64,000 bases of DNA, from assembly GCA_012728895.1 (NCBI GenBank), contig JAAYEG010000040.1, positions 1-64,000 on the forward strand. Reading direction: 5' to 3'. Of the stretch, positions 1-54,167 are shown piece by piece. This stretch comes from Methanospirillum sp. Lineage in GTDB: Archaea; Halobacteriota; Methanomicrobia; Methanomicrobiales; Methanospirillaceae. The translations under genes and the position numbers were made by a program. Numbering within the stretch: position 1 is the first letter of the stretch; every line of letters begins with the position of its first letter. Under the pieces are notes generated by a model that worked only from the letters and a program-made list of their open reading frames with translations, searched no databases and was not told the DNA's origin.

Positions 1-73
1 CATGATCCCGCAGATAGGTTTCAGCGGCCTCTTCGTCACCGGTGTATCGACCTAAGTCGACGAGGGATACCAT
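1..73 (-). CDS. 5' end of an unidentified gene cut by the window edge
   Basis: A minus-strand frame opens with ATG at 73 and stays open for 24 codons to the window edge, reading MVSLVDLGRYTGDEEAAETY and onward. A GGTGG purine stretch lies just upstream of the ATG. The style (short acidic N-terminus before the cut) recalls the first residues of some IS1595/ISXO2-type transposases, but 24 residues are too few to decide. It is divergent from the SAP-domain gene and shares its lower GC content. Confidence 0.4.
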   Translation of the reverse strand, partial: MVSLVDLGRYTGDEEAAETYLRDH

Positions 74-130
74 ACGTCCACCGTCTCATTCATCATATGA
101 AGGTGGCATTAATTAAAGAATCGCCTAAAA

Positions 131-952
131 ATGTTCATTGACGAGAGATTGGTCCGAAAAGGAGACCTTAATGAAAAGATGGAGGCGAAATTCAAAGTTT
201 CCGATTTGAAATCTCTATCTAAAGAACGAAACTTGCCTTCCACCGGAAAGAAGGCAGCTCTCATCGATCGATTGATACAATCAGATCGACTCGGTATGGA
301 ATCGTTGGTGTCTAATATTGAAATACTAACATGCACCGATGATGGAAGAGCTATCGCCGAGGAGTTTATCACGAGGGAGGAGGAGCTCAAGAGCAGGGTC
401 GAAAAGAAGACTGTTGGATTGTTGAAAGAAGGGAAGTACCGAGAAGCGATATCTGCGGTTGCAGATTATCGTGGACCCCCCAAGGAAATCAAAGACAGAT
501 CGGGAATGGTATTTGGAATGCAGAATCCTGAGAGGGACGAAGCACAATTGAAGACGATATTCTCGAAGACACCATCGACGTTACAATCTCTGAATGACGA
601 ACAACTAAATGCCCTCCGTATCGCCGCAGGAATGATGGTGATTTGGGGTTCCAATAACGGGAAAAAATGGTTGCCCGAAGACTTTTCGAATCCTTCAAAC
701 ATCTCTGTGGAAGCCGCGATGAGAACGTTACTTTCCCATGGAGTGTTCCTGGAAAATATACAGAGATACAAAAAAGCGGGTGTCAAATTTGTAAGAATAT
801 TATCTGCAGGAACCTTGTCCTGCGAATATTGCAGGAAACACGAAGGCAGAGTGTACCCAATTGATCAGGTAATCGCTTTACCCAACCCAGAATGTACGCA
901 TGAGATGGGTTGCCGCTGTTGTCTCGTCGCGGAAATTGAAATTCCAAAGTAA
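131..952 (+). CDS. SAP-domain protein with phage minor-head-like cysteine tail
   Basis: Encodes 273 residues from ATG 131; an internal ATG at 179, behind a GGAG stretch near 160, is an equally good start and leaves the domain intact. Residues about 22-52 (DLKSLSKERNLPSTGKKAAL) form a SAP helix-extended-helix DNA-binding motif. The last 50 residues (SCEYCRKHEGRVYPIDQV, then PNPECTHEMGCRCC) resemble the C-terminal signature of SPP1 gp7/Mu F minor head proteins, where a Cys-x2-Cys pair and a Gly-x-x-Tyr/Phe segment precede a final Cys/His cluster. The middle is charged and helical. GC and codon use are clearly lower than in all later genes, which suggests recent acquisition. The DNA-binding and viral-origin assignments are inferences. 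Confidence 0.6.
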   Translation: MFIDERLVRKGDLNEKMEAKFKVSDLKSLSKERNLPSTGKKAALIDRLIQSDRLGMESLVSNIEILTCTDDGRAIAEEFITREEELKSRVEKKTVGLLKEGKYREAISAVADYRGPPKEIKDRSGMVFGMQNPERDEAQLKTIFSKTPSTLQSLNDEQLNALRIAAGMMVIWGSNNGKKWLPEDFSNPSNISVEAAMRTLLSHGVFLENIQRYKKAGVKFVRILSAGTLSCEYCRKHEGRVYPIDQVIALPNPECTHEMGCRCCLVAEIEIPK

Positions 953-1111
953 TCGATAAATAGTCACGGGTTTTCAGAGATACAATAACGGACGATATCG
1001 CAGATAGTAGCCCCGGGAGCCATACAGACGAATATAGCGGCCCGTGGCGCCCCGATCATCGCCGTGGTCGATGGTCCGGGCCGGCACGTCCGGAATCATG
1101 GCAGAAGGAAA

Positions 1112-1134
1112 CCCCTCTCATTTTAAAGAAGGGG
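1112..1134 (-). terminator. Hairpin terminator behind truncated solute-binding gene
   Basis: On the minus strand CCCCTTCT, an AT-rich loop and AGAGGGG form a stem followed by TTT, starting 17 bases after the stop of the solute-binding fragment. One base is bulged. Its position and shape suit a transcription terminator. Confidence 0.5.
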
Positions 1135-1150
1135 AGATTCCGTGGCACCG

Positions 1151-1522
1151 TCAGGCGCCGACGAGCGCGTACTTGACCTTGAGTTCGTCCCAGTACGGGT
1201 CGTTCATCAGGAGGTCGAGGCCCGCGTTCATCGTCGCGAGAAGGTTCGCGTCGTCTTTCCGGACCGCGATCCCGTACTCCTCCTTCGTGTCGATCTCGTG
1301 GATGATCTTCGCGTCCAGCTGGCTGATGATGTTGACCGTCGGAGGCGTGTCGTAGACGGTCGCGTCGACCTGCCTGTTCATCAGGGCCGAGATCGCGAGC
1401 GGGAAATTGCCGAACGATTTGAGGTTCGAGGCTGGCATCTTCCCGGTGGCGATCAGGTTGTCCTGGACCCACCACCACCCGGTCGTCCCAAACTGGGAGC
1501 CGATCACGATCCTGCCGGACAT
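1151..1522 (-). pseudogene. Truncated extracellular solute-binding protein (family 3)
   Basis: The 123 residues match the second lobe and C-terminus of family 3 periplasmic amino-acid-binding proteins: GSQFGTTG is the typical lobe-crossing motif, followed by a segment with VDATVYDTPP and a tail ending LMNDPYWDELKVKYAL. A normal family member has about 250-280 residues with a signal peptide or lipobox, and the first half is absent here. An in-frame TGA lies five codons before the ATG, and the remaining space up to the nrdJ stop (1695) shows no recognisable first lobe in any minus frame. No permease or ATPase gene is nearby. I read it as a decaying remnant rather than a functional binding protein. 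Confidence 0.75.
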
Positions 1523-1694: not shown

Positions 1695-3896
1695 TCAGCT
1701 GCACCCGCTCCAGCCGCAGTGCTTGCAGATCCCCTGGTTGCACCCCTCGCCGAAGTCCAGGGGGGCCCGGCACTCGGGGCAGAGCCGCTTCTCGTCGACC
1801 TTCCGGATCTCCCAATCCCTGAGGGTCGTGATGCTCTCGTTCCTCGCCGAGAGCTCGATGCAGCGCCCGACCACGTCGGCGCAGGAGTGCCCCTCGGCGG
1901 ACGGGTTCTTGATCGCGGAGATGCAGTAGACCTTCGCAAACTGCCGGACGAACTTGTGGTACGGGACGCCGTTCTGGAGCCCGGTGCTGATCGCCCGCCC
2001 AATCGCGTTGCTGTTCGCCTCGCATCCTCCCTGCCCGACCGTCCGGATGAAGACCTCGATCGGCTGGCCGTCAAGCAGGTTCACGGTGACGTAGAGCCGG
2101 CAGCACCCCGACTGGCAGAGGTACGTCCGGCCCGCGAGCTCCTTGGGCCGGTCGATCGGGAGCCGGGGGACCTGCTCGGGGAGGCTCCCGTTCGCGGCCG
2201 TCCCGGCGGCGACGGGCTCCGTCTCCTTGAGGGCGAGCACGACCGTCTCCCGGCTCCCGGTGCGGTAGATCGTGATCCCCTTGAGACCGAGCCGCCAGGC
2301 CATCAGGAGCGCCTCCTCGCAGTCCTCCCTGGTCGCCGAGGCGGGCATGTTGATGGTCTTGCTGATCGAGGCGTGGACGTGCTTCTGGAAGCTCGCCTGC
2401 ATCAGGACGTGGTCGCGCCACGAGATGTCGAGCGCGGTCCTGAAGAGTGCTCGGAACTCGTCCGGGAGCCAGGCGACGTCCTGGACCGTGCCGGTCTCGT
2501 GGACGTGGGCGATCGTCTCCTCGAGCCGCCTCGCCCGCTCCTCCTCGGGGAGGCCCAGGCCCGCGACGGCCCGGCCGAGCGCCTCCCGGAAGACCGGGTT
2601 CACGATCACGAAGGTCTTCCCGACCGTGTTCTTCCTGGTGTAGGCGAACGAGAAGACCGGCTCGATCCCGCTCGAGCAGCCGGCGAGCAGGGAGATCGTC
2701 CCGGTGGGGGCGACCGTCGTCACCGCGGCGTTCCGGACGGATACCTCTCTCCAGACGCTCCCCTCCCAGGCAGGGAACGGCCCCAGCGCCACCGCGCGCC
2801 GGTGCGATTCGTCGACCGCGGCATCGTTTATTAGCCGCATCACCCCCTCGCACCAGGCCCTCCCCTCGTCCGAGTCGTAGCGGAGGCCCAGCATCAGCAT
2901 CGCGTCGTGGACCCCCATCACGCCCAGGCCGATCTTCCGGGTCCGCTTCGTCGCCTCCTCGATCTCGGGGATCGGGTAGACGTTCCGTTCCACGACCAGG
3001 TCCAGGAACCGGGCGGCCATCCGGGCGGTCTCTTCGACCCCGTCCCTGTCGAGGGCGCCGTCACGGACGAAGGCGGCGAGGTTGATGCTCCCGAGCACGC
3101 AGCTCTCGTAGGGGAGGAGCGGCTGCTCGCCGCAGGGGTTCGTGATCTCGATGGGGCCGAGGTCCGGCGTCGGGTTGTGCCGGTTGATCTCGTCGTAGAA
3201 GAGCACCCCCGGCTCCCCGTTCCGCCAGATCCCGTCGACGATCCCCGTCCAGATCCGGCCCACCGTGACCTCCTCCCCGGTGACGGGGTGGACGATCCAG
3301 ACGGTCTCGAGCTCGCGTCCCGCGACCAGGTCCATGAACCGGTCGTTCACCATCACCGAGATGTTGAAGTTCGCGACCTCGCCCTCCTCGTGCTTCATCC
3401 CGATGAACGCCAGGATGTCGGGATGCCAGACGTTCAGGATCCCCATGTTCGCCCCCCGGCGGCGCCCGCCCTGCTTGATCACGTCGGTCGCGGCGTTGAA
3501 GACCCGGATGAACGAGATCGGTCCCGAGGCGACCCCGTCCGTTGACTGCACGCTCGAGCCCTCCGGCCGTATCTGCGAGAAGTTGTAGCCGGTCCCCCCG
3601 CCCGTCTTGTGGATGATAGCGCCGTGCTTCATAGCGTCGAAGATCCCGTCGATCGAGTCGGGGACCGGCAGGGTGAAGCAGGCCGAGAGCTGGCCGATCT
3701 CCGTCCCGGCGTTCATCAGGGTCGGGGAGTTCGGGAGGAACCGGAGGCTCCGCATCGCCTCGAAGAAGGCCGCCCGGTCCCGGTCGTCCTCCGCGACGGC
3801 ATCGGCGACGCGCCGGCAGATCTCCTCGAAGGTCGTTTCCCCTTTCCGCAGGTACCGCGCGGAGAGGATACTGTCGACAACAGGTGATGTGGTCAT
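1695..3896 (-). CDS. nrdJ: Adenosylcobalamin-dependent ribonucleotide reductase (class II)
   Basis: 733 residues that reduce ribonucleotides to deoxyribonucleotides using a cobalamin-generated thiyl radical. The finger-loop sequence NPCGEQPLLPYESCVLGSIN lies at about 253-272: C255 is the expected radical cysteine. C266, 11 residues on, and C73 (SACFTLP) are the expected redox pair. The N-terminal RFLPNSPTLMNAG and KTGGGTGYNFS stretches are typical of the family. A C-terminal CPEC...C...CKHCG module after residue 700 is a zinc-ribbon-like tail seen in many class II enzymes. Start ATG at 3896. Oxygen-insensitive, B12-dependent reduction suits a corrinoid-rich methanogen. No partner subunit is expected. 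Confidence 0.95.
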   Translation of the reverse strand: MTTSPVVDSILSARYLRKGETTFEEICRRVADAVAEDDRDRAAFFEAMRSLRFLPNSPTLMNAGTEIGQLSACFTLPVPDSIDGIFDAMKHGAIIHKTGGGTGYNFSQIRPEGSSVQSTDGVASGPISFIRVFNAATDVIKQGGRRRGANMGILNVWHPDILAFIGMKHEEGEVANFNISVMVNDRFMDLVAGRELETVWIVHPVTGEEVTVGRIWTGIVDGIWRNGEPGVLFYDEINRHNPTPDLGPIEITNPCGEQPLLPYESCVLGSINLAAFVRDGALDRDGVEETARMAARFLDLVVERNVYPIPEIEEATKRTRKIGLGVMGVHDAMLMLGLRYDSDEGRAWCEGVMRLINDAAVDESHRRAVALGPFPAWEGSVWREVSVRNAAVTTVAPTGTISLLAGCSSGIEPVFSFAYTRKNTVGKTFVIVNPVFREALGRAVAGLGLPEEERARRLEETIAHVHETGTVQDVAWLPDEFRALFRTALDISWRDHVLMQASFQKHVHASISKTINMPASATREDCEEALLMAWRLGLKGITIYRTGSRETVVLALKETEPVAAGTAANGSLPEQVPRLPIDRPKELAGRTYLCQSGCCRLYVTVNLLDGQPIEVFIRTVGQGGCEANSNAIGRAISTGLQNGVPYHKFVRQFAKVYCISAIKNPSAEGHSCADVVGRCIELSARNESITTLRDWEIRKVDEKRLCPECRAPLDFGEGCNQGICKHCGWSGCS

Positions 3897-18716: not shown

Positions 18717-20063
18717 CTAGGAGCGGCCGTACGCGTCCTCGAACCTGACGATGTCGTCCTCCTCGAGGTACTCGCCGATCTGGACCTCGATCACCTCGAG
18801 CGGGATCATGCCCGGGTTCCCCAGCCGGTGGCGCTGACCGGTCTTGACGAAGGTCGACTCGCCCTGAGCGAGCAGGCGGACCTCGCCCTCGAGCTCCACC
18901 TCGGCCGTCCCCGAGACCACGATCCAGTGCTCGGACCGGTGGTGGTGGAGCTGGAGGGAGAGGCGGCGGCCCGGCCGCACCGTGACGCGCTTGATCTTGA
19001 ACGCGCCGTTCGCCTCGAGCACCTTGTAGGTGCCCCAGGGGCGGTGCTCCTCGCGGTGGTGGACCACGACCGGGTCGTTCTCCGCCTTCATCCGGGCCAC
19101 GAGGTCGCGGACCCGCCCGGTCTCGCTCTTTTTCGCGACAAGCAGGGCGTCGTCGGTGTCGACCACGACCAGCCCTTCGACCCCGATCAGCCCGACCCGC
19201 TTCTGCCCCGCCCGGACGAAGGTGTCGCGGCAGTCGAGGCAGAGCGCCCCCCCGGCGTTCCCGTCCGCGTCGGCCGGCTCTGCCGCAGCGAGCGCGGCGA
19301 AGTCGCCGAGGTCGGACCAGTCGGCCCGGAGCGGGACGACCGCGACCCGGTCCGAGTGTTCGAGGAGCCCGTAGTCGATTGAGACCGAGGGCATCGATGC
19401 GTAGTCGGGTGGGAGCGTTTCGACCCCGGCGGCGATCTCGGGCTGAAGGCGGGCGAGCTCCTGGAAGAAGACCCGGGGCGAGATGAGGAACATCCCCGAG
19501 TTCCAGAGGTAGCCGTCGCGGACGTACTCCTCTGCCGTGGCGGCGCCGGGTTTCTCGACGAACGCCCCGACCTCGAAACCCCCCGGCAGGAGGGGGCCCG
19601 GCCGGATGTAGCCGTACCCGGTGTGCGGCGCGGTGGGGGTCACCCCGAACGTGACCAGCCGCTCCTCCGCGAGCGCCGCCGCTCCCCGGATCACGTCGAG
19701 CGCGGCGTCCTCGAGCAGGTGGTCGCTCGGGAGGACGGCGGCGACACCCTCGCCCCCGGACTCGCGGATCTCCGCCATGGCCCAGGCGATCGCCGGGAGG
19801 GTGTTCCGTCCCGCGGGCTCGGCGAGGAGGCTGGTCTCGTCGCACCTCCCGCCCAGGGCCTCGACCTGGTCGCGGATCAGGTAGCGGTGGGCCGTGTTCG
19901 TCACCACCCAGACCCCGTCCTCCCCGGCGAGCGCCCGGGCGCGCAGCCAGGTGCGCTGGAAGAGAGAGCGGTCCCCGACCGGGAGGAACTGCTTCGGGTA
20001 CTGCTCCCGCGAGAGCGGCCAGAGCCGGGTCCCCGAACCCCCCGCGAGGATGATGCACTGCAT
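18717..20063 (-). CDS. Mannose-1-phosphate guanylyltransferase / mannose-6-phosphate isomerase
   Basis: 448 residues, the usual length of the bifunctional type II enzyme. The nucleotidyltransferase half starts IILAGGSGTRLWPLSREQYP and KQFLPV, with the substrate motif in FVEKPG at about 180. The C-terminal cupin (about 335-445) has HHREEHRPWGTYKVLE, RLSLQLHHHRSEHWIVVSG and GQRHRLGNPG, the metal-binding isomerase motifs. It would make GDP-mannose from fructose-6-phosphate via mannose-6-phosphate (with a phosphomannomutase elsewhere) for surface glycans. The flippase-like gene follows upstream on the same strand with a short 26-base gap. Confidence 0.94.
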   Translation of the reverse strand: MQCIILAGGSGTRLWPLSREQYPKQFLPVGDRSLFQRTWLRARALAGEDGVWVVTNTAHRYLIRDQVEALGGRCDETSLLAEPAGRNTLPAIAWAMAEIRESGGEGVAAVLPSDHLLEDAALDVIRGAAALAEERLVTFGVTPTAPHTGYGYIRPGPLLPGGFEVGAFVEKPGAATAEEYVRDGYLWNSGMFLISPRVFFQELARLQPEIAAGVETLPPDYASMPSVSIDYGLLEHSDRVAVVPLRADWSDLGDFAALAAAEPADADGNAGGALCLDCRDTFVRAGQKRVGLIGVEGLVVVDTDDALLVAKKSETGRVRDLVARMKAENDPVVVHHREEHRPWGTYKVLEANGAFKIKRVTVRPGRRLSLQLHHHRSEHWIVVSGTAEVELEGEVRLLAQGESTFVKTGQRHRLGNPGMIPLEVIEVQIGEYLEEDDIVRFEDAYGRS

Positions 20064-20089
20064 GGATCACCGTTGCGTGCGCCCGGGGG

Positions 20090-21127
20090 TTAAGGTTCGC
20101 GGACCGCGCCGCGCCGCGAGGCCTCGCGGCGGACGATCGCGACCCCCGCGCCGAGCCCGAGCACGATGTTGAGGTGGTAGACGATGAGGCGCCAGAGCAG
20201 GATCAGGAGCCCGAGCGACGAGGATGGAACGAAGAGCCCGTAGAGCGAGGCGGCCGAGGCCTCGGCGAGCCCGGCCCCGCCCGGGGTCAGCGGGATGAGG
20301 GCGATCACGTTGACCAGGATCTGGCAGAGGACGGAGAGGACCCAGTCCGCGGGCAGGCCGAGCGCGAGCAGCACCAGGGAGGCGACCGAGAACTCGAGGA
20401 GCCAGTACCCGGCCGAGAAGAGGAGCCCGCCCACGAGGTGCCCCCGGCCCCGCCCGGCGAACCGGCCGAAGGCGGCCCGGAAGTGGCCGGCCTCCCGTTC
20501 GACCCGGGCGGCCGTCCCGGCGAGCCGCCCGGCGGCCCCGCCGGGGAGCACCCTTCCGAGCGCGCCCGCCCCGGCGAAGAGGACGCGGCGGAGGGCGCCC
20601 GGGGAGACCAGGGCGAGCAGGAAGAGGCCGGCCACCGCGAGGACGACGACCCCGATCGCCTCCAGGAGGAGGCCGCCCTCGACCCCGAGCACCGCCATCT
20701 GCCGGCCCAGGAAGCGGATCGCCAGCAGGACCGCGGCCAGCAGCAGGAAGAAGTCGAGGAGCCGCTCGACCGCGACGACCGCGGTCGCGTCCCCTGCCCG
20801 CACCCCCGCCCGGTAGAGCTCGTGGGCCCGCACCGGCTCCCCCCCCGCCGACGACGGCGTGATGGCGGCAGCGAGCACGTTCGCCAGGACGAGCGGGACG
20901 CAGGCCCGGAACGGGACGTCGTAGCCGAGCCCCGCCGAGAGGACCCGGACCCGCCCCGCCCAGCAGAGGAGGGCCGCGCCGTGCGAGAGGACCGCGACCG
21001 CGATCCAGCGCCAGTCCAGGTGCCCGAGCGCGGCGACGGTCGCGCCGTCCACGGTGAGCGCGAGCACCAGGCCGAGCACGCCGGCCGAGATGAGGACCGA
21101 GACGAAGAGCCAGCCGCGCCGCCGCAT
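20090..21127 (-). CDS. Flippase-like integral membrane protein (UPF0104/LPG synthase TM family)
   Basis: 345 residues with about eight hydrophobic segments: residues 5-27, 38-58, 76-92, 125-145, 155-180, 230-250 and others. The signature region VPLVLANVLAAAITPSSAGG and later PLTPGGAGLAEAS is diagnostic of the lysylphosphatidylglycerol synthase TM family, whose archaeal members (AglD-like) work with dolichol-linked sugars or lipids. It probably moves or modifies a lipid intermediate (inference). It shares a strand and tight spacing with a GDP-mannose synthesis gene and with the DUF357 gene, whose stop lies 1 base before its ATG. Confidence 0.88.
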   Translation of the reverse strand: MRRRGWLFVSVLISAGVLGLVLALTVDGATVAALGHLDWRWIAVAVLSHGAALLCWAGRVRVLSAGLGYDVPFRACVPLVLANVLAAAITPSSAGGEPVRAHELYRAGVRAGDATAVVAVERLLDFFLLLAAVLLAIRFLGRQMAVLGVEGGLLLEAIGVVVLAVAGLFLLALVSPGALRRVLFAGAGALGRVLPGGAAGRLAGTAARVEREAGHFRAAFGRFAGRGRGHLVGGLLFSAGYWLLEFSVASLVLLALGLPADWVLSVLCQILVNVIALIPLTPGGAGLAEASAASLYGLFVPSSSLGLLILLWRLIVYHLNIVLGLGAGVAIVRREASRRGAVREP

Positions 21128-21128
21128 C

Positions 21129-21695
21129 CTACACCGCGAAGAGGGAGCGGTCCCCGCCGACCGCGAGCAACCCGGACCTGACCCCCGCGTCGAGCCAGCC
21201 GTGCGCGTAGGAGCTGACCTGGACCGAGGCCTCGCAGTCGCCGCCGGCGAGGAGGGCGGCGGCCGCCCCGTGGAAGGCCCGGGCCACCGCGACGACGGTC
21301 AGCGCGGCCGCGTGCGCCGGGCTCGCGGGGTCCGGGGCCGGGCCGGCGCTCAGGGCGGCGGACCCGAGCATCGCGGCGTACCGCCGGGCCTTTTCCCCGA
21401 GCCGGGCCGCGTGCCGGCCCGGGACCGTGCCGCGGAGAAGGCCTGCGCCCGTCTCCGTGCCGTCGAGGAGGCCGAGCACCAGCGCGGCGTCGAGCCAGCC
21501 GCAGGCGTAGGCCAGGGCGGCGAGGGCGTTCACCGGGTCGTCACGCGCGGCGAAGACTGCCGCGTCCGTCCGGTACGCCCGGACCATCTCCAGGCAGTCC
21601 GAGGCGGCCGGGGCAAGGAGGGCGTCCTCCCGCACCCCCGGCCGGGCGCGGGCGAGGCAGGCGTCCAGGCGGTCGAGCGATGCGGCGACGGTCAT
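21129..21695 (-). CDS. DUF357 protein with two repeats
   Basis: 188 residues in two halves that each end in the family motif: ALAYACGWLDAALVLGLL (about 58-75) and SSYAHGWLDAGVRSGLL (about 165-181). DUF357 is an archaeal helical domain of unknown function normally present once; here it appears duplicated, with the linker (residues about 80-140) alanine-rich. Its ATG overlaps the dphB stop as ATGA, so it follows dphB in one transcript. Confidence 0.88.
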   Translation of the reverse strand: MTVAASLDRLDACLARARPGVREDALLAPAASDCLEMVRAYRTDAAVFAARDDPVNALAALAYACGWLDAALVLGLLDGTETGAGLLRGTVPGRHAARLGEKARRYAAMLGSAALSAGPAPDPASPAHAAALTVVAVARAFHGAAAALLAGGDCEASVQVSSYAHGWLDAGVRSGLLAVGGDRSLFAV

Positions 21696-22441
21696 AGGCC
21701 CGCGAAGGCCTCCAGGTGTTCGCGCTCCATCACGTGGAGGTCGCCGGGCACGATCAGGACGTGCAGGGGGCCGCCGAACTCGACGGCGCGGAGACGGGCG
21801 GCGTCACCGGCCGCGACGACCGGGTCGGGCGACCCGACCCGGGAGCAGCCGACGTAGAGCGGGATCTCCTGGCCGAGCGAGGCCGCCGTCGTTCCGAGCA
21901 GGTCGAGCGCATCCGGGATCAGCATGAACCGGCCGGGCTGGATGTCGAGGTAGACCAGGGTGTGGAGCCCCCGGGAGAGGTTCTCGCCGATCACCGCGAC
22001 CGGCGAGGTCGGCCTCCAGTTCCCGTGCGGGAAGGGGAGCGAGGTCGCCGGGCCGAACCGGTAGTTCTGGAGCCCGGCGAGCCCGGCCGCAGCGGTGGCG
22101 ATCGAGGCCCCGTGCACGATCCGGGTCTCGATCCCGAGCCGGCTCGCCCGGAGCCGGAGGTCGACGTGGGTGGTCGAGACCATCGGGTCGCCCGGGACGA
22201 GGAGCACCGCGGTCCCCTCCCTGGCAGCAGCGAGCACCTCGTCGGGGCGGTTCTCGACCCCGGCGCGCGAGAGGACCGTGACCGGCTTCTTCCAGGCCGC
22301 CTCCATCTCGGCGACGCTCGCGCCGACGAGACGGGAGGTGTAGCCCTCGAGAAAGACCCGGTCCGCCTCCGCGATCGCTCGCCTGCCGCGGAGCGATACG
22401 TCCTCGAGGTCCCAGAGCCCGAGGCCGACGAAGACGAGCAG
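21692..22441 (-). CDS. dphB: Diphthine synthase DphB with apparent CTG start
   Basis: 249 residues if read from CTG at 22441. DphB methylates the modified histidine of elongation factor 2 to give diphthine. The family's first residues are normally M-L-x-x-V/I-G-L-G-L-[WY]-D; here the codon in the methionine position is CTG, followed by LVFVGLGLWDLEDVSLRG, and an in-frame TAG lies immediately before it. The next ATG (22306) would delete the first 45 residues, including the AdoMet-binding strand. Later motifs are normal: LVPGDPMVSTTH, HGASIATAAAG and YVGCSRVGSPDP. A run of eight G's lies 6 bases upstream of CTG and may act as ribosome-binding site. Non-canonical start or a sequence error. Confidence 0.9.
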   Translation of the reverse strand: MLVFVGLGLWDLEDVSLRGRRAIAEADRVFLEGYTSRLVGASVAEMEAAWKKPVTVLSRAGVENRPDEVLAAAREGTAVLLVPGDPMVSTTHVDLRLRASRLGIETRIVHGASIATAAAGLAGLQNYRFGPATSLPFPHGNWRPTSPVAVIGENLSRGLHTLVYLDIQPGRFMLIPDALDLLGTTAASLGQEIPLYVGCSRVGSPDPVVAAGDAARLRAVEFGGPLHVLIVPGDLHVMEREHLEAFAGL

Positions 22442-22535
22442 CTAGGCCCCCCCCTGCAGGGGGCCCGCGGGCCGGGAACGGGACATGATCGGCGTAGCTG
22501 TCGCGCGGAGCCGGGATAAGCGCTTTGGTGGCCGC

Positions 22536-24389
22536 TCAGCCGAACGCGAAGTTGAAGAGCGCGCCGAAGAAGAGCCCGAGCAGGAGCGTGTAGACCGTGA
22601 TCAGGCCCGCGATCCGGGTGCCGATCTCCTGCCGCAGGACCGCGATCGTGGAGATGCACGGCACGAAGAGGGTCGAGACGAGCGCGAAGACGTAGAGCTG
22701 GAGCCCTGTCATCACGGTGTCGAGCCGGGCAGTCCCGGCGAGGACGACCAGGGTCTCGAAGGCCATCTCCTTCCGGAGGATGCCGAAGAGGAGCGCGGTC
22801 GAGGCGTACGCCGGCAGCCCCAGGACCCCCTCCGAGATCGGGGCGAAGGCCTCCTGGAACGCGGCGATCACCCCGAAGTACCCGAGCAGGCCGAGCACGA
22901 TGCTGCTGACGAGCAGGAGGGGCATCGCGATGTACAGGAACTCCTTGATCCGGAGCCAGGCCTTGAGCAGGACCAGGTCCGGACGCGGGCGGCGGAGCGG
23001 GGGCATCTCCAGGACCATCCCGAACTGGGGGCCGGGCGTGACCCGGCTCAGCACGACCCCCGTCGCCAGGATCAGCCCGAGCACGATCAGGTAGATCGAG
23101 AACGCGGCCCAGAGCGAGACGAACGAGGCGACGATCCCCGAGATGACGACCGTCCGGGCCGAGCAGGGGACCATCGTGATCAAAAAGGCGGCGATGACGC
23201 GCTCGCGCCGGGTCGAGAGAAGGCGGGTCCCCATCACGGCCGGGACGTTGCACCCGAACCCGAGCACGAGCGGGATGATCGCCTCGCCGTGGAGACCCAT
23301 CCGGTGCATGGTCCGGTCGGCCAGGAACGCGGCCCGGGACATGTACCCCGAGTCCTCGATCACCGCGAGGAGCACGTAGAACGTGAAGATGTACGGGAAG
23401 GCGATCCCGAACCCCGACTGGAGCGCGAGGCCGACGGAGACGAGCACTTCGCGGACGAGGGGGTCCAGGTCGAGCGCCGCGATGGGGTCGAGGAGCAGGA
23501 AGTCGAAGGCCTCGACGATGTACTCCTCGAGGACCCCGCCGACGATGAAGACCGCGAGCAGCATCGCGCCCAGGACGCCGACCAGGATCGGGACCCCCGG
23601 GAACGTCCGGGTCAGGAGCCGGTCGATCCCGGCGTCGGCCTCGCCGGCCGACGAGACCACCTGGTCCGCGATCGCCCGCGCCAGGTTGTGCCGGTTGGTC
23701 GCGATGATCTGGGCGGCCGACATCCGGTGGCGGCGGCCGATCTCCTTGCTCACGTCGTCGGCCGACTCCAGGAGATCGGGGTCGTCGCCGAGCCCCTGGA
23801 GGGCCTGGAGGGCGGTGCGGCGGTCGATCCCGAAGGACCGCCCGAGCGAGTGGACGGCGGCCTCGACGTGGTTGTCGTACGGGACCTCGACCGAGGCGGG
23901 CCGGGCCTCCAGGAGGGCGGAGGGGAGGATCCGGTCGATCCCCTGCCCGGTCGCCGCCGATGTCGCGACCACGGGGATCCCGAGCAGCTCCCCGAGCCGC
24001 GCGGTGTCGACCGAGATCCCGCGGCGGACCGCCTCGTCGGTCATGTTCACGACCGCCAGCATGGGCCGGCCGTACTCGGCGACCTGGAGGAGGAGGTAGA
24101 GGGTCCGCTCGAGCCGGGTCGCGTCGAGCACGGCCACGAGCGTCGTCATCTCGTCGTCCTCGACGATCCGCCGGATCAGGGTGTCGGTCTCGGCCCCGTC
24201 CTCGAGCGAGTAGACGCCGGGCAGGTCCACGACCTCGACCCGCTCGCGCTGCCAGCAGGAGGAGCCCGAGAAGAGGTCGACCGACGAGCCGGGGTAGTTG
24301 CCGACCTCGACCCCGACCCCGGTCAGCTGGCTGAAGATCAGCGACTTGCCGACCCCGGGGTTGCCGACGAGCGCGACCTTCAGCGGCAT
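22536..24389 (-). CDS. feoB: Ferrous iron transporter FeoB
   Basis: 617 residues from ATG 24389. The N-terminal G domain has GNPGVGKS at 9-16, the G2/G3 region with NYPGSSVD and VVDLPGVYSLEDG, and G4-like VVNMTDEA. From about 290 on there are 9-10 membrane segments with the typical GFGCNVPAVMGTR gate and, near the end, GILRKEMAFETLVV. It imports Fe(II) with GTP hydrolysis. It overlaps the upstream DtxR-FeoA gene by 10 bases, so the pair is one transcription unit. Ends in a segment LGLFFGALFNFAFG. Confidence 0.95.
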   Translation of the reverse strand: MPLKVALVGNPGVGKSLIFSQLTGVGVEVGNYPGSSVDLFSGSSCWQRERVEVVDLPGVYSLEDGAETDTLIRRIVEDDEMTTLVAVLDATRLERTLYLLLQVAEYGRPMLAVVNMTDEAVRRGISVDTARLGELLGIPVVATSAATGQGIDRILPSALLEARPASVEVPYDNHVEAAVHSLGRSFGIDRRTALQALQGLGDDPDLLESADDVSKEIGRRHRMSAAQIIATNRHNLARAIADQVVSSAGEADAGIDRLLTRTFPGVPILVGVLGAMLLAVFIVGGVLEEYIVEAFDFLLLDPIAALDLDPLVREVLVSVGLALQSGFGIAFPYIFTFYVLLAVIEDSGYMSRAAFLADRTMHRMGLHGEAIIPLVLGFGCNVPAVMGTRLLSTRRERVIAAFLITMVPCSARTVVISGIVASFVSLWAAFSIYLIVLGLILATGVVLSRVTPGPQFGMVLEMPPLRRPRPDLVLLKAWLRIKEFLYIAMPLLLVSSIVLGLLGYFGVIAAFQEAFAPISEGVLGLPAYASTALLFGILRKEMAFETLVVLAGTARLDTVMTGLQLYVFALVSTLFVPCISTIAVLRQEIGTRIAGLITVYTLLLGLFFGALFNFAFG

Positions 24390-40938: not shown

Positions 40939-43140
40939 ATGGAACGATACCCCGACTTCCCCCAGATCCCCGAGCGGCTCTCGGGGCTCGTCGACCTCGC
41001 CTACAACCTCTGGTGGTCCTGGCACCCCGAGGCCCGCCTGCTCTTCAAGCAGCTCTCGCACCCGCTCTGGAAGGAGTGCGTCCACAACCCGATCCGGCTC
41101 ATGCACCACCTCCCGGCGGACGTCTTCGACGAGGCGGCCACGGACCCGGACTACCTCCTCCGCTACGACATCGTGATGCACCGGTTCCGCCGGTACATGG
41201 ACGAGCGGAACGGGTGGTTCCAGGAGGCCTACGGCGAGGGGGGGAACGGGATGCGGATCGCCTACTTCTCGGCCGAGTTCGGGCTCCACCACTCGCTCCC
41301 GTTCTACGCCGGCGGTCTCGGGTTCCTGGCGGGGGACCACCTCAAGGAGTGCTCCGACCTCCACGTCCCGGTGGTCGGGGTCGGGTTCATGTACGCGGAC
41401 GGCTACCTCCACCAGAGGCTCACCCCCGACGGCTGGCAGGAGGACATCGTCGAGACCCTGGACCGGGCGGCCGCGCCGATCACGCAGGTCGCCGGCCCGG
41501 ACGGGAAGCCGCTGGAGGTGACCGTCCCCCTGATGGACCCGGACCTCCTGGCCTACGTCTGGCGGGTCGACGTGGGCCGGGTCCCGCTCTATCTCCTGGA
41601 CACGGACCACCCCGCGAACCCCCCGGAGTACCGCTCGATCTCGAGCCGGCTCTACACCGGGGACCGCGAGCTCCGGCTCCGGCAGGAGATCGTGCTCGGG
41701 GTCGGCGGGCGGCGGATGCTCGCGGCCCTGGGGGTCGAGTTCTCGGCGGTCCACCTCAACGAGGGCCACCCGGCCTTCGCCCTGCTCGAGCTCCTCCGCG
41801 AGCGGGTCGAGGAGGGGACCCCGTTCGACCAGGCGGTCCGCGAGGTGCGCGGGACCTCGATCTTCACGACACACACCCCGGTCCCGGCCGGGTTCGACGT
41901 CTTCTCCGACGACCTGATCACGAAGGCGTTCAACTCCTACCCCGCGTCGCTCGGGCTCTCGACCGAGGAGTTCCTCTCGCTCGGGCGCGACCCCGCCTCC
42001 CCCGGCTCGGGGTTCAACATGGCGATGCTCGCGCTCCGGCTCTGCGGGCACGCGAACGCGGTCTCGGAGCGGCACGGCCAGGTCTCGCGCGAGCTCTTCG
42101 GCGGGCTCTGGCCGGGCCGGCCGATTGACCAGGTCCCGGTCGGCTCGATCACGAACGGGGTCCACCTCCCGACCTGGCTCAACTCCCGGATGGCCGCGCT
42201 CTTCGACCGCCACTTCTTCGAGACCAGCCCGAACTGGCTCGAGGAGCACGACGTTTCGGCGATCTGGAAGCTGGTCGACGCGATCCCGGACGGCGAGCTC
42301 TGGAACCTCCACATCGCGCTCAAGGCGAAGCTCCTGAACCGGATGCGCGAGCGGCGCCGGCGGGTCTTCGCGGGCGGGAACGAGGACCCGGGCCGGTTCG
42401 TGGCCGAGGGGGTGATGATGGACCCGTCGGTCCTGACGATCGGGTTCGCCCGCCGGTTCTCGACCTACAAGCGGGCCGACCTGGTCTTCCGGGACCCCGA
42501 GCGGCTCCGGCGGATCCTGACCCACAAGAAGCGGCCGGTCCAGCTGATCTTCGCGGGGAAGGCGCACCCGAGCGACGAGGAGGGGAAGCGGATGCTCCAG
42601 CGGATCTACGGGTTCGCCCGCCGGCCCGAGTTCGAGGGGCGGATCGCGTTCCTGGAGGACTACGGCGAGCAGACCGCGCAGTACCTGGTCCACGGCGTCG
42701 ACGTCTGGCTCAACAACCCGCTTCCGCCGATGGAGGCCTCGGGGACGAGCGGGATGAAGGCCGCGATGAACGGGGTCGTGAACTGCTCGATCCTGGACGG
42801 CTGGTGGCTGGAGGGCTTCAACGGCGTGAACGGCTGGGCCTTCGGGGGCGAGGCGCAGGGCGGGGACCGGTCGAACTCCGACGCGGAGGCGATCTACCGC
42901 CTGCTCGAGGAGGAGATCACCCCGCTCTACTACCGGAAGGGGCTCGACGGGGTGCCGCACGACTGGGTCCGGCTGATGAAGGCCTCGATCCGGTGCTGCG
43001 CCCCCCGCTTCTCGGCCCGCCGGATGGTCAAGGAGTACGTCGGGCACTACTACCCGCACCTGCTCAGCTGCGCGGCCTCGGGGTTCGAGGTCTGCCCGGT
43101 CGACCCCCCTGAACTCTCTCTCGCCGGCCGGGAGGGATAG
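40939..43140 (+). CDS. glgP: Alpha-glucan (glycogen) phosphorylase
   Basis: 733 residues from ATG 40939. It belongs to the archaeal/short type (GT35): NLWWSWHPEARLLF at the N-terminus, AYFSAEFGLHHSLPFYAGGL, HLNEGHPAFALLE, TTHTPVPAGFDVF, and near the end EASGTSGMKAAMNGVVNCS, the phosphate/pyridoxal-phosphate region containing the lysine of GMKAAMNG. It releases glucose-1-phosphate from alpha-glucan ends. It closes the glucan cluster; a 127-base gap with a new promoter separates it from the pilin operons. Confidence 0.94.
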   Translation: MERYPDFPQIPERLSGLVDLAYNLWWSWHPEARLLFKQLSHPLWKECVHNPIRLMHHLPADVFDEAATDPDYLLRYDIVMHRFRRYMDERNGWFQEAYGEGGNGMRIAYFSAEFGLHHSLPFYAGGLGFLAGDHLKECSDLHVPVVGVGFMYADGYLHQRLTPDGWQEDIVETLDRAAAPITQVAGPDGKPLEVTVPLMDPDLLAYVWRVDVGRVPLYLLDTDHPANPPEYRSISSRLYTGDRELRLRQEIVLGVGGRRMLAALGVEFSAVHLNEGHPAFALLELLRERVEEGTPFDQAVREVRGTSIFTTHTPVPAGFDVFSDDLITKAFNSYPASLGLSTEEFLSLGRDPASPGSGFNMAMLALRLCGHANAVSERHGQVSRELFGGLWPGRPIDQVPVGSITNGVHLPTWLNSRMAALFDRHFFETSPNWLEEHDVSAIWKLVDAIPDGELWNLHIALKAKLLNRMRERRRRVFAGGNEDPGRFVAEGVMMDPSVLTIGFARRFSTYKRADLVFRDPERLRRILTHKKRPVQLIFAGKAHPSDEEGKRMLQRIYGFARRPEFEGRIAFLEDYGEQTAQYLVHGVDVWLNNPLPPMEASGTSGMKAAMNGVVNCSILDGWWLEGFNGVNGWAFGGEAQGGDRSNSDAEAIYRLLEEEITPLYYRKGLDGVPHDWVRLMKASIRCCAPRFSARRMVKEYVGHYYPHLLSCAASGFEVCPVDPPELSLAGREG

Positions 43141-43233
43141 GCCCCGCCCCTCGCCGGGAACCGCCGGCCCGGGGCAGGGAAGCCGGCGATTTATCCCCCC
43201 CCGCGGCCCCGGTCCAGGACGAGAGAAAAGCAA

Positions 43234-43241
43234 CATTTATG
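43234..43241 (+). promoter_or_regulatory. Promoter of pilin operon A
   Basis: CATTTATG in an AT island (GAGAGAAAAGCAACATTTATGATAAC) preceded by an A/G-rich BRE-like stretch, 27-34 bases before ATG 43268. It suits a leaderless or very short-leader transcript of the first pilin operon. Confidence 0.6.
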
Positions 43242-43267
43242 ATAACTTTCTGCATATAGTTCCCGTA

Positions 43268-44287
43268 ATGGCTGCGCCGGGGAGGGTGCGGAGCGAGGAC
43301 GCGCTGTCGGAGATCGTCGGGTTCGTGCTGGTCCTGGCGCTGGTGGTCGTGGCCTCGACCCTCTACCTGATGTACGTGGTGCCGGCCGAGGGCCGGGAGG
43401 ACGAGATCACCCAGATGAACGAGGTCCAGGACCGGTTCGTCAGCTACAAGACGAGCGTGGACGGGCTCTGGATGCGCTCGCTGGCCGACCTCTCCGTGGC
43501 CGGGACGCGCGGCGTCTCGCTCTCCACCTCGTTCGACCTGGGGACGGGCGGGGGCAACACCCAGTCGAGCGGGCTCTTCCTCTCGTTCATGCGGCCGATC
43601 GGGACGGCCGCGAATATGCGGACGCAGATAGGCACGGAACCGACCGATACCATAGAGGATCGAATCGGTCTGCGGCTGAACGAAGATGAATACTATTTTG
43701 CGAACGATGCGGAATTCAACGAGGTGCCCGTCGGATCCCTGAGCTACCACACGGACAATTACTACTGGATCCAGCAGAACTACATCTACAAGCTCGGCGG
43801 GGTGTTCCTGGAGCAGCCCGGCGAGGGCGTCTCGGTCAAGGTTGCGCCGCCCATCGCCATCTACCAGGTGAAGAACGCGTTGAACGACCCGCCCAGCGAT
43901 GCGGTGAAGGTCAGCCTCTCGCTCGTCAACATCACGAGCCCAAGTTCGACCGTCGGCGGTACCGGGCCCCTGCGCGTCGAGACGCGCCTCCGAGAGTCGG
44001 TGGTCGCATCCTACCGGAACGAACCTTTGAAGGAAGTCGTGTTTTGGGTCTACGCAAAAGATGAGTTCTGGGCGGATGCCTGGTTGCAGGTCTTTCACGA
44101 TCTAAAAAGGAAGTGCCCGGTCTCTAATCCAGACGAGTGGATCGATATCGAACAGGATAATTCCGATCCACGGATGGTCACGCTACACGTCTCTCATAAA
44201 CCGGGCGGGGTCCCGTCCCCGACGAGCGACGTGTTCCTCGACCTTTCCGAAGCGACGCTCCAGGTGACGTTCGAGTATGACGAGTAG
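43268..44287 (+). CDS. Archaeal type IV pilin-like protein, scaffold type (operon A)
   Basis: 339 residues. The prepilin-like N-terminus SEDALSEIVGFVLVLALVVVA is followed by a membrane helix and an extended ectodomain with the segment VVPAEGREDEITQMNEVQDR. No known fold in the ectodomain. It is a paralogue of the protein at 46260 (same head, same VPxxGREEEI linker, then YKT and LW blocks, and a conserved NYYWIQQNYIYKLGGVFL stretch). It opens operon A and is coupled to the next gene by an 11-base overlap. Probably a minor pilin or scaffold that carries the larger one (inference). Confidence 0.78.
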   Translation: MAAPGRVRSEDALSEIVGFVLVLALVVVASTLYLMYVVPAEGREDEITQMNEVQDRFVSYKTSVDGLWMRSLADLSVAGTRGVSLSTSFDLGTGGGNTQSSGLFLSFMRPIGTAANMRTQIGTEPTDTIEDRIGLRLNEDEYYFANDAEFNEVPVGSLSYHTDNYYWIQQNYIYKLGGVFLEQPGEGVSVKVAPPIAIYQVKNALNDPPSDAVKVSLSLVNITSPSSTVGGTGPLRVETRLRESVVASYRNEPLKEVVFWVYAKDEFWADAWLQVFHDLKRKCPVSNPDEWIDIEQDNSDPRMVTLHVSHKPGGVPSPTSDVFLDLSEATLQVTFEYDE

Positions 44288-46136
44288 GGAGGACGCTGTC
44301 TCGGAGGCCATCGGGGGCGTCCTGCTCATTGCACTCGTGGTCATCGGCGCGGCCATCGTGGGCACGTACGTGGCATCGCAGCCCCTGCCCGAGAAGATCC
44401 CCAAGGTGCAGTTCGGCGTCAAAGAGTATCAGAAGAATATCTACCTCGAGCACGAGGGCGGAGAGAGCCTTATCAATGGATCTTTTTCTGTCGTGGTCGA
44501 CGGTCAGCGTATCCCCCCTGGCAAGTGGGAGATCGTATCCGGTGATGACACGTGGAACCTTGGGGATAGGATCAAGATTGATGAAGAGTATGAAGGAGCC
44601 AAATCGGTCGGCCTCGTCTACAGCGGGGGTTCGGGCGAGACGCTGCTGCGTTCTTCCAGCTCACCGTGGGGATTTGAGTACTCGCCCCCGTTCCCGGATC
44701 CGTTCGAGGTCATCGAGGATCCCTACGAGGTTCGCGATATCCCAGATTGGCCGGGGAACTTCACCAACCTGTCCTACGACTGGCCCGTCACCGCTGAGCC
44801 GCAACCGACCTTTACGCCGGCGAACTCCAAGCACGTGTACGTCGCCGCGAAAGACTCGACGATCACGCCCCCCGAACCTCCGCTCTTCATCTGCGACGGG
44901 GTCGACGACGAGCGCGAGATCAACGACGCGATCGCCATTGCACAGGGAGGAGTCGTGGAGCTGCTCGACGGCACCTTCCGCTGCCACGGGCGGATCATCC
45001 TCCGCGACGACACCTCGCTCTACGGCCAGGGGTCACTGGATACCGCGGTCGAGATAACGGCGAAGAACGGCGGCTCGGGGTACCTGCCGGTGACCATCAA
45101 CGCGAACAACGTGAACGTCGGGTATTTTTCGCTCCACGGGAACGGCTTCGTCATGGTCACGAAGAGCCACGTCCGGGTCCACGACATCACCGCGACCAGC
45201 ATCGACCTGGACGGCAAATGGCACAAGGCCTCGGGGAACGGGATGTTCTTCGTCTGGGTCGCCCCGCCCGAGATCCAGGTCGATGACGTCGAGTTCTACC
45301 TCTGTCGGGCGGTCCGGTGCCACACCCACGGGTTCAACATGAACCAGTACTATGATGACCGGGTGGTGCGGGCCACCACGAACATCCGGTTCGTCGGATG
45401 CCATGCGGTCAAGTGCGGCTACGGTGTCGCCGGCGAACCGGGCATCCCGGCATCGGTCACGTCCACGAACGAGTCCCGCTCGGAGTGGATCACCGGTTTC
45501 GACTTCCACGAGTGGCAGGACCTCGTCAACTGCGAGGTCGTGGAGTGCGTCGCCGCCGACAACTGGGAGTCCGGGTTCCACCTCGAGCCCGGCGCCCGGT
45601 ACACGGAGCCGCCGGGCCCGTGGACCGTCTCGAAGAACATCGTCTTCCGGGACTGTGCGAGCATCGACAACGGACAGCGGAACACCTACAAGAACCACTT
45701 CTTCATGTCGGGCTACTACCTCTCGCGGGACACCGACCTACACAACTGCTACTCAGAGAACAACCGGAACTGCGGCTACTACGTCCACAGCGGGAAGGAC
45801 AGCTCGTTCACGGATTGTAGGGACGTCGGGAGCACCTACGGGTGGAAGGTCTGCAAGGCGAGCGAGGATATATCGATCGCGGACTGCACCAGTGAGAACA
45901 ACCCCCGCTGGGCCCTCTGGCTCTCGTTCTCGAAGCGCATCTCCGTGACCAACTTCGTCCAGAGTAACGTCGCCGGGGACCGGGGATACCAGAACATCCT
46001 GGGGTGGTACAAGGACGAGGCGAAGTACCAGCTGCCGGTCACGGACTCGAAATTCGTCATCACGGCCTATGGAAACACCATGCCGATCATCAACAGGGCA
46101 GGGAACGGCAATACCTATGACCTCTCTTACGGGTGA
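44277..46136 (+). CDS. Pilin-tethered beta-helix surface protein
   Basis: 619 residues. Type IV pilin head (EDAVSEAIGGVLLIALVVIGAA) then a PF07790-like beta module (KVQFGVKEYQKNIYLEHEGG), a linker and a right-handed beta-helix from about residue 180 (YVAAKDSTITPPEPP, then CDGVDDEREINDAIAIAQGG). Coils show GNGMFFVWVAPPEIQVDDVE, HGFNMNQ, CGYGVAGEP, NWESGFHLEPGAR and several Cys pairs. No catalytic residues are evident, so adhesion or glycan binding is more likely than lyase activity. It shares long identical blocks with the protein at 30625. Exported and processed by a prepilin peptidase encoded elsewhere (inference). Confidence 0.8.
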   Translation: MTSREDAVSEAIGGVLLIALVVIGAAIVGTYVASQPLPEKIPKVQFGVKEYQKNIYLEHEGGESLINGSFSVVVDGQRIPPGKWEIVSGDDTWNLGDRIKIDEEYEGAKSVGLVYSGGSGETLLRSSSSPWGFEYSPPFPDPFEVIEDPYEVRDIPDWPGNFTNLSYDWPVTAEPQPTFTPANSKHVYVAAKDSTITPPEPPLFICDGVDDEREINDAIAIAQGGVVELLDGTFRCHGRIILRDDTSLYGQGSLDTAVEITAKNGGSGYLPVTINANNVNVGYFSLHGNGFVMVTKSHVRVHDITATSIDLDGKWHKASGNGMFFVWVAPPEIQVDDVEFYLCRAVRCHTHGFNMNQYYDDRVVRATTNIRFVGCHAVKCGYGVAGEPGIPASVTSTNESRSEWITGFDFHEWQDLVNCEVVECVAADNWESGFHLEPGARYTEPPGPWTVSKNIVFRDCASIDNGQRNTYKNHFFMSGYYLSRDTDLHNCYSENNRNCGYYVHSGKDSSFTDCRDVGSTYGWKVCKASEDISIADCTSENNPRWALWLSFSKRISVTNFVQSNVAGDRGYQNILGWYKDEAKYQLPVTDSKFVITAYGNTMPIINRAGNGNTYDLSYG

Positions 46137-46145
46137 GCCGTACGG

Positions 46146-46169
46146 CCTGCCTGGCTCAGGACAGGCAGG
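46146..46169 (+). terminator. Hairpin terminator between the two pilin operons
   Basis: CCTGCCTG-GCTCAGGA-CAGGCAGG is a perfect 8-bp stem with an 8-base loop, starting 10 bases after the beta-helix pilin stop. It separates operon A from B. Confidence 0.6.
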
Positions 46170-46259
46170 ATTGCCCTGCTCTGTGTTCAAAACGGCGCCT
46201 GCCGGCCTGTCTTCACGTCGGGTCAACGTTTCAAAAGGTTAAAGTAGGTGAACCATAGA

Positions 46260-47336
46260 ATGGAGAGTCGGAGCACCAGGGGACGGAGGTCTCACGAGGA
46301 CGGTATCTCGGAGGTCGTCGGCTTCGTGGTCATCCTCGCGGTCGTGGTGGGTGTGCTGTCGCTCTACCTCACCTACGCGATCCCGGTCCAGGGGAGAGAG
46401 GAGGAGATCAGGGTGATGGACGGTGTGCGTTCCTGGTTCGTCGACTACAAGACCGGGCTGGACCAGCTCTGGCTGAACAGCCCCGTCGTCAATAACAGCA
46501 CTACCCCCTATGTCCCGCGGGACACCATCTTCCCCGAAGACAGGAATGCTCTGTACAGCATCACCACCGGCCAGGTCACGCTCCGGCGTGTCATCAGCCC
46601 GGGAACCAGCCGGGAGTCCGGCTTCATCCGCCGGTACCTGCCGCTGCTCGCCCCGATACCGTCCTCGGCAGAAGTCTCTGTCAGGAACGAGGACACGTTC
46701 AGGATATCGGGGTGGAGAAACGGCACGGAAGTCCTCAAGTGGGAAGGGACGGTTCCCTCGCTCGTCTATACCTCGCACAACTACTACTGGCTCCAGCAGG
46801 AGTACTCGTACCAGCTCGGCGGAGTCTTTCTCCGCCAGTGGGACCTGGCGGGAGCAGAACCGAGGAGGATGACCGTGGTGGCGTCGCCCCCGCTCTCTCT
46901 TTACACCCCCGAGGGGGGGACAACCTACCAGACGAAGGCCGAGATCGTCGTCGTGAACCTGAGTGCAGAGACAGGGGGTTTCGGGGTTACGTCTCCGGTC
47001 AGGGTCGAGACCAACCTCTCGGCGGACCCGCTGGATCTCGAGCCCAGCGACGGACGGCCATCGGCGGAATTCTCGGCCGTCACCCTGACTTTCGAGGGTG
47101 CGAGCCACGAATCGGCGGTGGCGTGGTCCACGATCTTCGAGGGAGCCGCGATGCGGAATACCCTCAATTCCGACTATTACAATCTAACGAAACCGAACGC
47201 ATCGACGCCCACGATAGCCGCGATCGACATCATCGGGTACGAACCCTCGGATCCATACATCCATGATGTCCAGTTCGAGGCGCTTATCGCGAACTACGCC
47301 ATGAGGATGCAGAATGTGCCGACAATGATCGAATAG
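46260..47336 (+). CDS. Archaeal type IV pilin-like protein, scaffold type (operon B)
   Basis: 358 residues from ATG 46260, with AGGTGA (46246-46251) as ribosome-binding site; a GTG four codons earlier lies inside that site and is rejected. The head HEDGISEVVGFVVILAVVVGVL is followed by IPVQGREEEIRVMDGVRSWF, and the ectodomain resembles the paralogue at 43268 (HNYYWLQQEYSYQLGGVFLR). No known enzymatic motif. Starts operon B; its stop is 9 bases before the next ATG. Possibly a common base on which the different large pilins are displayed (inference). Confidence 0.78.
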   Translation: MESRSTRGRRSHEDGISEVVGFVVILAVVVGVLSLYLTYAIPVQGREEEIRVMDGVRSWFVDYKTGLDQLWLNSPVVNNSTTPYVPRDTIFPEDRNALYSITTGQVTLRRVISPGTSRESGFIRRYLPLLAPIPSSAEVSVRNEDTFRISGWRNGTEVLKWEGTVPSLVYTSHNYYWLQQEYSYQLGGVFLRQWDLAGAEPRRMTVVASPPLSLYTPEGGTTYQTKAEIVVVNLSAETGGFGVTSPVRVETNLSADPLDLEPSDGRPSAEFSAVTLTFEGASHESAVAWSTIFEGAAMRNTLNSDYYNLTKPNASTPTIAAIDIIGYEPSDPYIHDVQFEALIANYAMRMQNVPTMIE

Positions 47337-47345
47337 GTGAGAGCA

Positions 47346-53041: not shown

Positions 53042-53075
53042 GCAGTCGGTGCGTTGAGACAGCGACCGGCTCCCC

Positions 53076-53082
53076 TTTTTTT
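53076..53082 (+). terminator. T-run terminator after PKD pilin
   Basis: CCTTTTTTTGTTT, 35 bases after the stop, with a GC-rich CCGGCTCCCC stretch before it. Confidence 0.55.
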
Positions 53083-53915: not shown

Positions 53916-53935
53916 GAAACCCGGAGAAACCCGGA
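53916..53935 (+). repeat. Tandem 10-base repeat
   Basis: GAAACCCGGA occurs twice head to tail in an otherwise non-coding stretch. Two copies only; not a CRISPR array. Confidence 0.6.
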
Positions 53936-54081
53936 GCGTCAGGGGAGGACGAAATGGATGGGCGAGGAACGGGATGGGTTCATGTCGAGATGCCGGCACC
54001 GGTTTGAAGAGTGAGCCACTGCTCGTTCTCTTGACGTTTTTTTCATGCGAGGCAATCGGCTTACAGTCACAACAAACTGTC

Positions 54082-54106
54082 CGGTACCTCGTCCGAAAAG
54101 GTACCG
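54082..54106 (-). terminator. Inverted repeat, probable terminator of the NHL gene
   Basis: CGGTACCT...AGGTACCG, an 8-bp perfect repeat with a 9-base loop, about 60 bases past the NHL gene stop on its strand. It could also be an operator-like palindrome. Confidence 0.4.
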
Positions 54107-54167
54107 ATTGCCCCCCGCCACGCATGTCCCCGCGGGCCACAGGGGCCGAGTTCCCATTCGTCCCCTC

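Follow-up and report, generated by a model that had tools for sequence, protein, structure and literature searches.

The window, the whole 64,000-nucleotide stretch that was analysed, is contig C31:1-64000 of an assembly of 2.28 Mb in 80 contigs. Its base 1 is the first base of C31, so its left edge is a physical contig end and was rejected as a biological boundary. GC content is 0.447 at positions 1-1000 against 0.64-0.79 nearly everywhere else in the window, which agrees with the AT-rich first kilobase of the original prediction. The drop is confined to positions 126 to about 1000 (GC ~0.45, no strand assigned), and the values are 0.52 at 1-100 and 0.65 at 1001-1100. The open reading frame (ORF) in this segment, at 131-952 on the plus strand, has a GC3 of 0.48 compared with 0.93-0.97 in the neighbouring host genes, and the surrounding chromosome is 65-75% GC. 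A search of 199 close relatives of the host with the ORF protein returned only the query itself, and the gene was therefore not inherited within the host family. It is a foreign, horizontally acquired single gene, as its composition had led one to suspect. Elsewhere in the window, positions 20001-24000 have a strong AT skew (0.2-0.44) despite a GC content of 71-76%, and GC falls from ~0.73 to ~0.60 across about 14 kb at 43000-58000.

The segment is preceded by the end of an IS1595-family insertion sequence (1-125, minus strand), which comprises the first 24 codons of a transposase (73..1) and a 24-bp terminal inverted repeat, GGTGGCATTAATTAAAGAATCGCC, at 102-125. The codons encode MVSLVDLGRYTGDEEAAETYLRDH, which resembles the N-terminus of a transposase. 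Copies of this ~125 bp, either identical or with 82% identity, are present on C6, C55, C71 (both ends), C70 and C2 and at the opposite end of C31, and C28 has a shorter related fragment. These copies lie nearly always at contig ends, and all of the longer ones diverge immediately past the 24-bp repeat. Matching right ends are found on C54 and C4 with a DDE_Tnp_IS1595 domain (PF12762), and an 8-bp duplication common to C71 and C54 (TAAAGATA/TATCTTTA) fixes the ends of the element and the length of its target site. With a DDE_Tnp_IS1595 transposase, terminal inverted repeats and an 8-bp target duplication the element belongs to the IS1595 family, and contig C31 breaks inside one of its multiple copies. 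Many other contig breaks in the assembly are also copies of this family (C6, C55, C71, C70, C2, C31, C64, C54, C4, C12 and C28), and matching of terminal repeats and target duplications can order contigs, as for C71-C54 and C64-C31.

Directly after the insertion sequence end lies an 8-bp target-site duplication, TAAAAATG (126-133, no strand), whose reverse complement, CATTTTTA, follows the right end of the element on C64. The predicted partner junction, a right end and then CATTTTTA, has one site in the genome (C64:107-135, 0 mismatches), and a reversed control pattern has none. C64 is thus the other side of the insertion, with the matching end, the matching 8-bp duplication and the missing N-terminal codons. 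The window ORF is the 3' part (131-952, plus strand, 273 amino acids) of an interrupted gene, and ~98 N-terminal codons, which cover the zinc ribbon and the beginning of the wHTH/SAP region, are located at C64:131-424 on the minus strand. Joining C64 and C31 as an empty site gives one open frame through the junction, which reads MAKVCSRCGKKIGFFGYQSKMGLCSPCEQ...SSDWQTSKPYLQLL...EEPAIVIK and then continues into MFIDERLV... of the window ORF. By itself, the C64 part matches a Marinobacter homolog over residues 9-52 (E = 2e-9), and its alignment to homologs extends as far as the break; the window ORF covers the Marinobacter protein from about residue 59 to its end. The open frame and the homology across the junction imply that the gene was intact, with ~371 codons, before the insertion sequence entered. 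Because the ATG of the ORF (131-133) falls inside the target duplication, the single complete protein that had been read here is an insertion artefact: a longer gene was cut at 125/126, and the 273 residues are its C-terminal part. The gene is most likely inactive in this host, since the remaining frame has been parted from its promoter and N-terminus. The case shows that what seems a whole orphan protein at the edge of a contig can be a fragment left by an insertion sequence.

Cellular genes adjoin the interrupted gene on both sides. In the window it is followed by a host gene fragment (1151-1522, minus strand) resembling family-3 solute-binding proteins (PF00497, E = 0.002, 18.3 bits, below the cut-off of 26.4), and then by a ribonucleotide reductase of the class II type with a TSCPD domain (1695-3896, minus strand; PF02867, E = 7.9e-129; PF12637, E = 1.7e-15). 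On C64, past the 5' part, the next genes encode a DUF4352 protein and a cysteine-desulfurase-like class-V aminotransferase, and reading the sequence further identifies phosphoglycerate kinase and V-type ATP synthase subunits. No portal, terminase or integrase occurs in the C64 and C31 flanks. A provirus to the left is rejected by the C64 junction and the ordinary archaeal genes beyond it, and with it the proposal that the gene came from an archaeal virus or integrated element whose other genes lie on that side. Ordinary flanking genes together with a lack of viral matches to the C-terminus were to have told against a viral connection; the flanking genes are indeed ordinary, but matches to minor head proteins exist, and a possible viral link survives in that relatives of the gene do occur in phages. 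An imperfect ~38-bp direct repeat brackets the gene, with one copy at 1027-1064 (plus strand) and the second on its other side at C64:1372-1409. The gene may have integrated by way of this repeat, but copies of it are dispersed elsewhere in the genome, including C17, C18 and C24, and its length reaches up to ~65 bp. The same genome also has a provirus-like region at C40:5001-25000 with a portal-like ORF, a Phage_Mu_F match at C40:17056 and a large terminase ORF that starts with an apparent intein end (..GRFMVPTHN followed by SRAGAEW..). The C40 Phage_Mu_F gene is part of this separate region.

The intact protein of ~371 amino acids had a putative zinc ribbon, a SAP domain, helices and a MuF-like putative zinc domain, in that order. 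The Cys motif in the N-terminal part from C64 resembles a zinc ribbon, with a sub-threshold Pfam match only. The SAP domain (residues 20-52 of the ORF, 188-286, plus strand) scores 37.6 bits against a curated cut-off of 23.9 (PF02037, E = 1.6e-9) and has Foldseek matches to the solved SAP domains of Tho1. The putative zinc domain (residues 193-271, 707-943, plus strand) consists of a helix, a strand and a CxxC...C-T-x-E-x-G-C-R-C signature, and its five Cys are invariant across the family. On its own, the sequence of the C-terminus gives matches to minor-head PHROGs with E values from 3e-4 to 0.04, and to the NCBIfam model of SPP1 gp7 (TIGR01641) at E = 0.027 (14.9 bits, below the cut-off of 39.65). 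PF04233 is not among the Pfam matches of the ORF, and the best homolog reaches 27.1 against its cut-off of 29.6. In profile-profile comparison (hhalign), the last 80 residues match archaeal MuF proteins at 98.9% (E = 1.9e-17, score 88.8), and column-shuffled profiles that keep the Cys columns score at most 29. The alignment thus identifies the C-terminal domain as a homolog of phage MuF/gp7 minor head proteins, and both halves of the domain pair that had been noticed by eye are recovered, the gp7-like half weakly from a single sequence and strongly from profiles.

The predicted structure of the window ORF has a pLDDT of 86.9, and that of a full-length homolog from Chlorobiales a pLDDT of 92.6 and a pTM of 0.82. 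A Foldseek search of the PDB with the latter model gave no significant match. Its best ten matches are all FAN1 (E 0.045-0.3, probability 0.28-0.94), and membership in FAN1 was rejected because the fold match is sub-threshold. In BFVD, 31 viral models match with E <= 0.001; among those with names, many are minor capsid or head-morphogenesis proteins and one is named for a SAP domain. The pairing of SAP with a MuF C-terminal domain may therefore already exist unremarked in metagenomic phages. Pfam and NCBIfam scans found no toxin domain, so that a MuF toxin was also rejected, and neither database nor PADLOC has a model for the whole SAP/MuF-like protein. PADLOC likewise gave no match for the family proteins P0001 (the window ORF), P0003 (Marinobacter), L061 (Chlorobiales) and L055.

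Relatives of the gene are few and scattered. Scans with the window ORF protein as a single query had no match in viral or genome contigs, and alignments were needed to find homologs there. A tblastn search detects a full-length relative on the Marinobacter plasmid pMAD49a (31%, E = 9e-36); the only other plasmid homologs are a Neisseria record and one weak match. Alignment-based scans add homologs in Phycisphaerae, Chlorobiales, Holophagaceae, Methanothrix and Neisseria, and the viral contigs (including IMG/VR) contribute five Neisseria-type prophages and three further loci (L065, L088 and L089). Among 394 archaeal genomes of the host phylum, 14 match the family HMM, most through the C-terminal domain only. 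In four Methanocella-like genomes the match covers SAP and the helical part (E = 1e-21 to 7e-26), and the hits to the C-terminal domain alone include a few more proteins, several of which are real MuF proteins. The family profile matches the alignment with the Methanocella-like proteins over its full length, the two alignments having members in common. Two of 392 Planctomycetota genomes match. A tree of 13 members is star-like, grouping the window protein weakly with that of Methanothrix (83/86), and its resolution is too poor to date the transfer. The Holophagaceae homolog (L062:4765-5757) has an in-frame TGA, making it a second cellular copy that looks decayed. These proteins are best explained as a rare, scattered and undescribed accessory family of temperate phages, mobile elements and bacterial and archaeal chromosomes.

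The phage contexts of the relatives suggest a link to lysogeny. In the Neisseria prophages, a 186-amino-acid form without SAP directly follows a CI-type regulator (HTH_3 and Peptidase_S24), and its start overlaps the regulator stop. In L088, the family gene overlaps the preceding Cro/C1-type regulator (HTH_26) by 4 nt and is followed by TerL, an ORF in the portal position with no Pfam match, and a distinct MuF protein (PF04233, E = 8.4e-5, slightly short of the cut-off). In L089, it follows an HTH_3 regulator in an overlapping frame, on a contig that also has a Mu-type transposase. Three unrelated phages thus have the gene immediately behind a Cro/CI-type regulator, where one would expect its expression in the lysogen. 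A related SAP module (60 columns, hhalign 91%, E = 1.1e-6) lies between a CI-type regulator and the integrase of Streptococcus phage Javan617, and a Latilactobacillus phage encodes a SAP protein beside a Peptidase_M78 protein. A Phycisphaerae prophage has the family gene between TerL (GpA_nuclease) and a lambda-type portal; SPP1 is described as carrying moron genes between the same two positions (PMC6316719). On the 77-kb virus contig L065 the gene is outside any recognisable head module. The head-module position downstream of a portal was not encountered, with host genes around the window gene and copies elsewhere located behind regulators, alone or before a portal.

Among the cellular copies, that of Methanothrix adjoins AriA and AriB of the PARIS defence system, and the contig (L063:3478-5830) also has a type I restriction-like ORF upstream. 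The Chlorobiales gene is in an AT-rich solitary pair within a 60% GC region. Within the few kilobases seen around many of the cellular copies (Chlorobiales, Holophagaceae, Methanocella-like), there is no phage or defence neighbour.

We hold with middling confidence that the window contains the broken 3' part of an acquired gene whose family is a lysogeny-expressed mobile accessory, probably of an immunity type. Acting in the lysogen or its host, the protein would provide immunity or exclude superinfecting phages. The SAP module could hold it on DNA, zinc would be bound by the Cys-rich domain, and the MuF-like domain, by analogy with gp7, may engage the DNA-portal complex of another phage as it enters. 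In published descriptions, gp7 binds the portal and is dispensable for assembly (PMC6316719), and the title of a reference cited there calls it a DNA-binding protein. Alternatively, the MuF-like domain could serve as a decoy in head assembly, a mechanism suggested by domain homology. DNA binding through SAP is not essential to every member because the Neisseria version is without this domain. The lack of a PADLOC match and the many cellular copies with neither phage nor defence genes nearby also tell against an immunity role. A more speculative extension, to which we give little credence, is that temperate phages turned their own MuF C-terminal domain and a SAP module, tied to the repressor, into a factor that blocks rivals, and that archaea and bacteria took it up as a single-gene defence. 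If the protein is an immunity factor, it would be an example of a virion domain turned on other phages and common to bacteria and archaea. No paper was found in the literature searched that pairs a SAP domain with a minor head protein, nor one that joins a SAP domain, prophages and superinfection.

Ranked next after immunity is a regulator that partners the phage repressor, either an antirepressor or a DNA-damage sensor related to it as ImmA is to ImmR. The SAP domain would then detect flaps or ends in DNA, with the zinc domain controlling induction through the repressor. The gene's overlap with, or direct adjacency to, the regulator in three phages is consistent with such a partnership, as are the best PDB matches to FAN1, a SAP-containing flap nuclease (E = 0.045, probability 0.94, below significance), and the Peptidase_M78 neighbour of the Latilactobacillus SAP protein. 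Stand-alone chromosomal copies, including the window gene, have no adjacent repressor, however, and we judge this role unlikely.

A cellular DNA-repair or chromatin protein with a FAN1-like SAP is improbable. The C-terminal zinc domain would in that case be cellular and MuF derived from it, and there are indeed Methanosarcina-like chromosomal proteins with a related C-terminal domain in which no phage context is seen, as well as four Methanocella-like genomes with full-length members. The very patchy distribution described above, with mostly C-terminal matches in the archaea, the AT-rich islands in the host genome and Chlorobiales, and the linkage to phages and repressors all argue against a cellular protein of this kind.

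The gene product is probably not a phage head protein. It could be a remnant of an archaeal tailed provirus, a minor head (MuF) protein whose SAP domain holds the packaged DNA, and the C-terminal homology to MuF, the best BFVD matches to head-morphogenesis and minor capsid proteins (one of them named for SAP) and the position of the Phycisphaerae copy are compatible with this. The head role is still more improbable. In L088 the family gene is between the regulator and TerL, and a separate MuF gene follows the portal position. Furthermore, the window gene has host genes on both sides and neither portal nor terminase, the C40 provirus of the same genome has its own Phage_Mu_F, the repressor-adjacent relatives are outside the head module, and the Marinobacter homolog has no match among 50,697 phage records. 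It is least probable of all that the remaining 273-amino-acid ORF is still expressed and functional, starting from the insertion sequence end. In favour are the stop-free frame with its ATG at 131 and an AT-rich stretch (ATTAATTAAAG) upstream in the inverted repeat as a possible promoter; against it, the ORF is missing ~98 N-terminal residues, the last ~45 of them conserved, has no visible ribosome-binding site in the sequence, and is most simply inactivated by the insertion.

Known domains are combined here in a way that is undescribed, and the proposed role of the family is suggestive. Its C-terminal helix-strand-CxxC...CRC domain is homologous to that of MuF/SPP1 gp7 (PF04233, TIGR01641), with C-T-x-E-x-G-C-R-C in place of the canonical H-P-x-C-R-C. 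It differs from these proteins in that a SAP module and helices replace the usual N-terminal part, in being encoded behind repressors or alone rather than after a portal, and in scoring below the curated cut-offs of both models. The MuF polymorphic toxins (PMC5576092) are likewise multidomain MuF proteins linked to temperate phages. In those proteins, however, MuF leads, a toxin domain follows, and the gene is downstream of the portal, whereas here the MuF-like domain is C-terminal and no toxin domain is recognised. Several chromosomal proteins of Methanosarcina-like genomes (L039-L045), which begin MGLFDFLK... and end in a MuF-related CxxC...CxC domain, have a homologous C-terminus (hhalign 98.7%) but different N-termini in which no SAP is seen. 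The SAP region of FAN1 provides the best PDB matches of the full-length homolog model, no more than suggestive at an E of 0.045, and no family member was found to have its VRR-NUC nuclease domain. The SAP proteins of Streptococcus and Latilactobacillus phages (phrog_10777, E = 2.4e-6 for the Chlorobiales homolog) have a similar SAP stretch and, like the family, a place in the lysogeny module, although the Javan617 protein is without the Cys-rich C-terminal domain.
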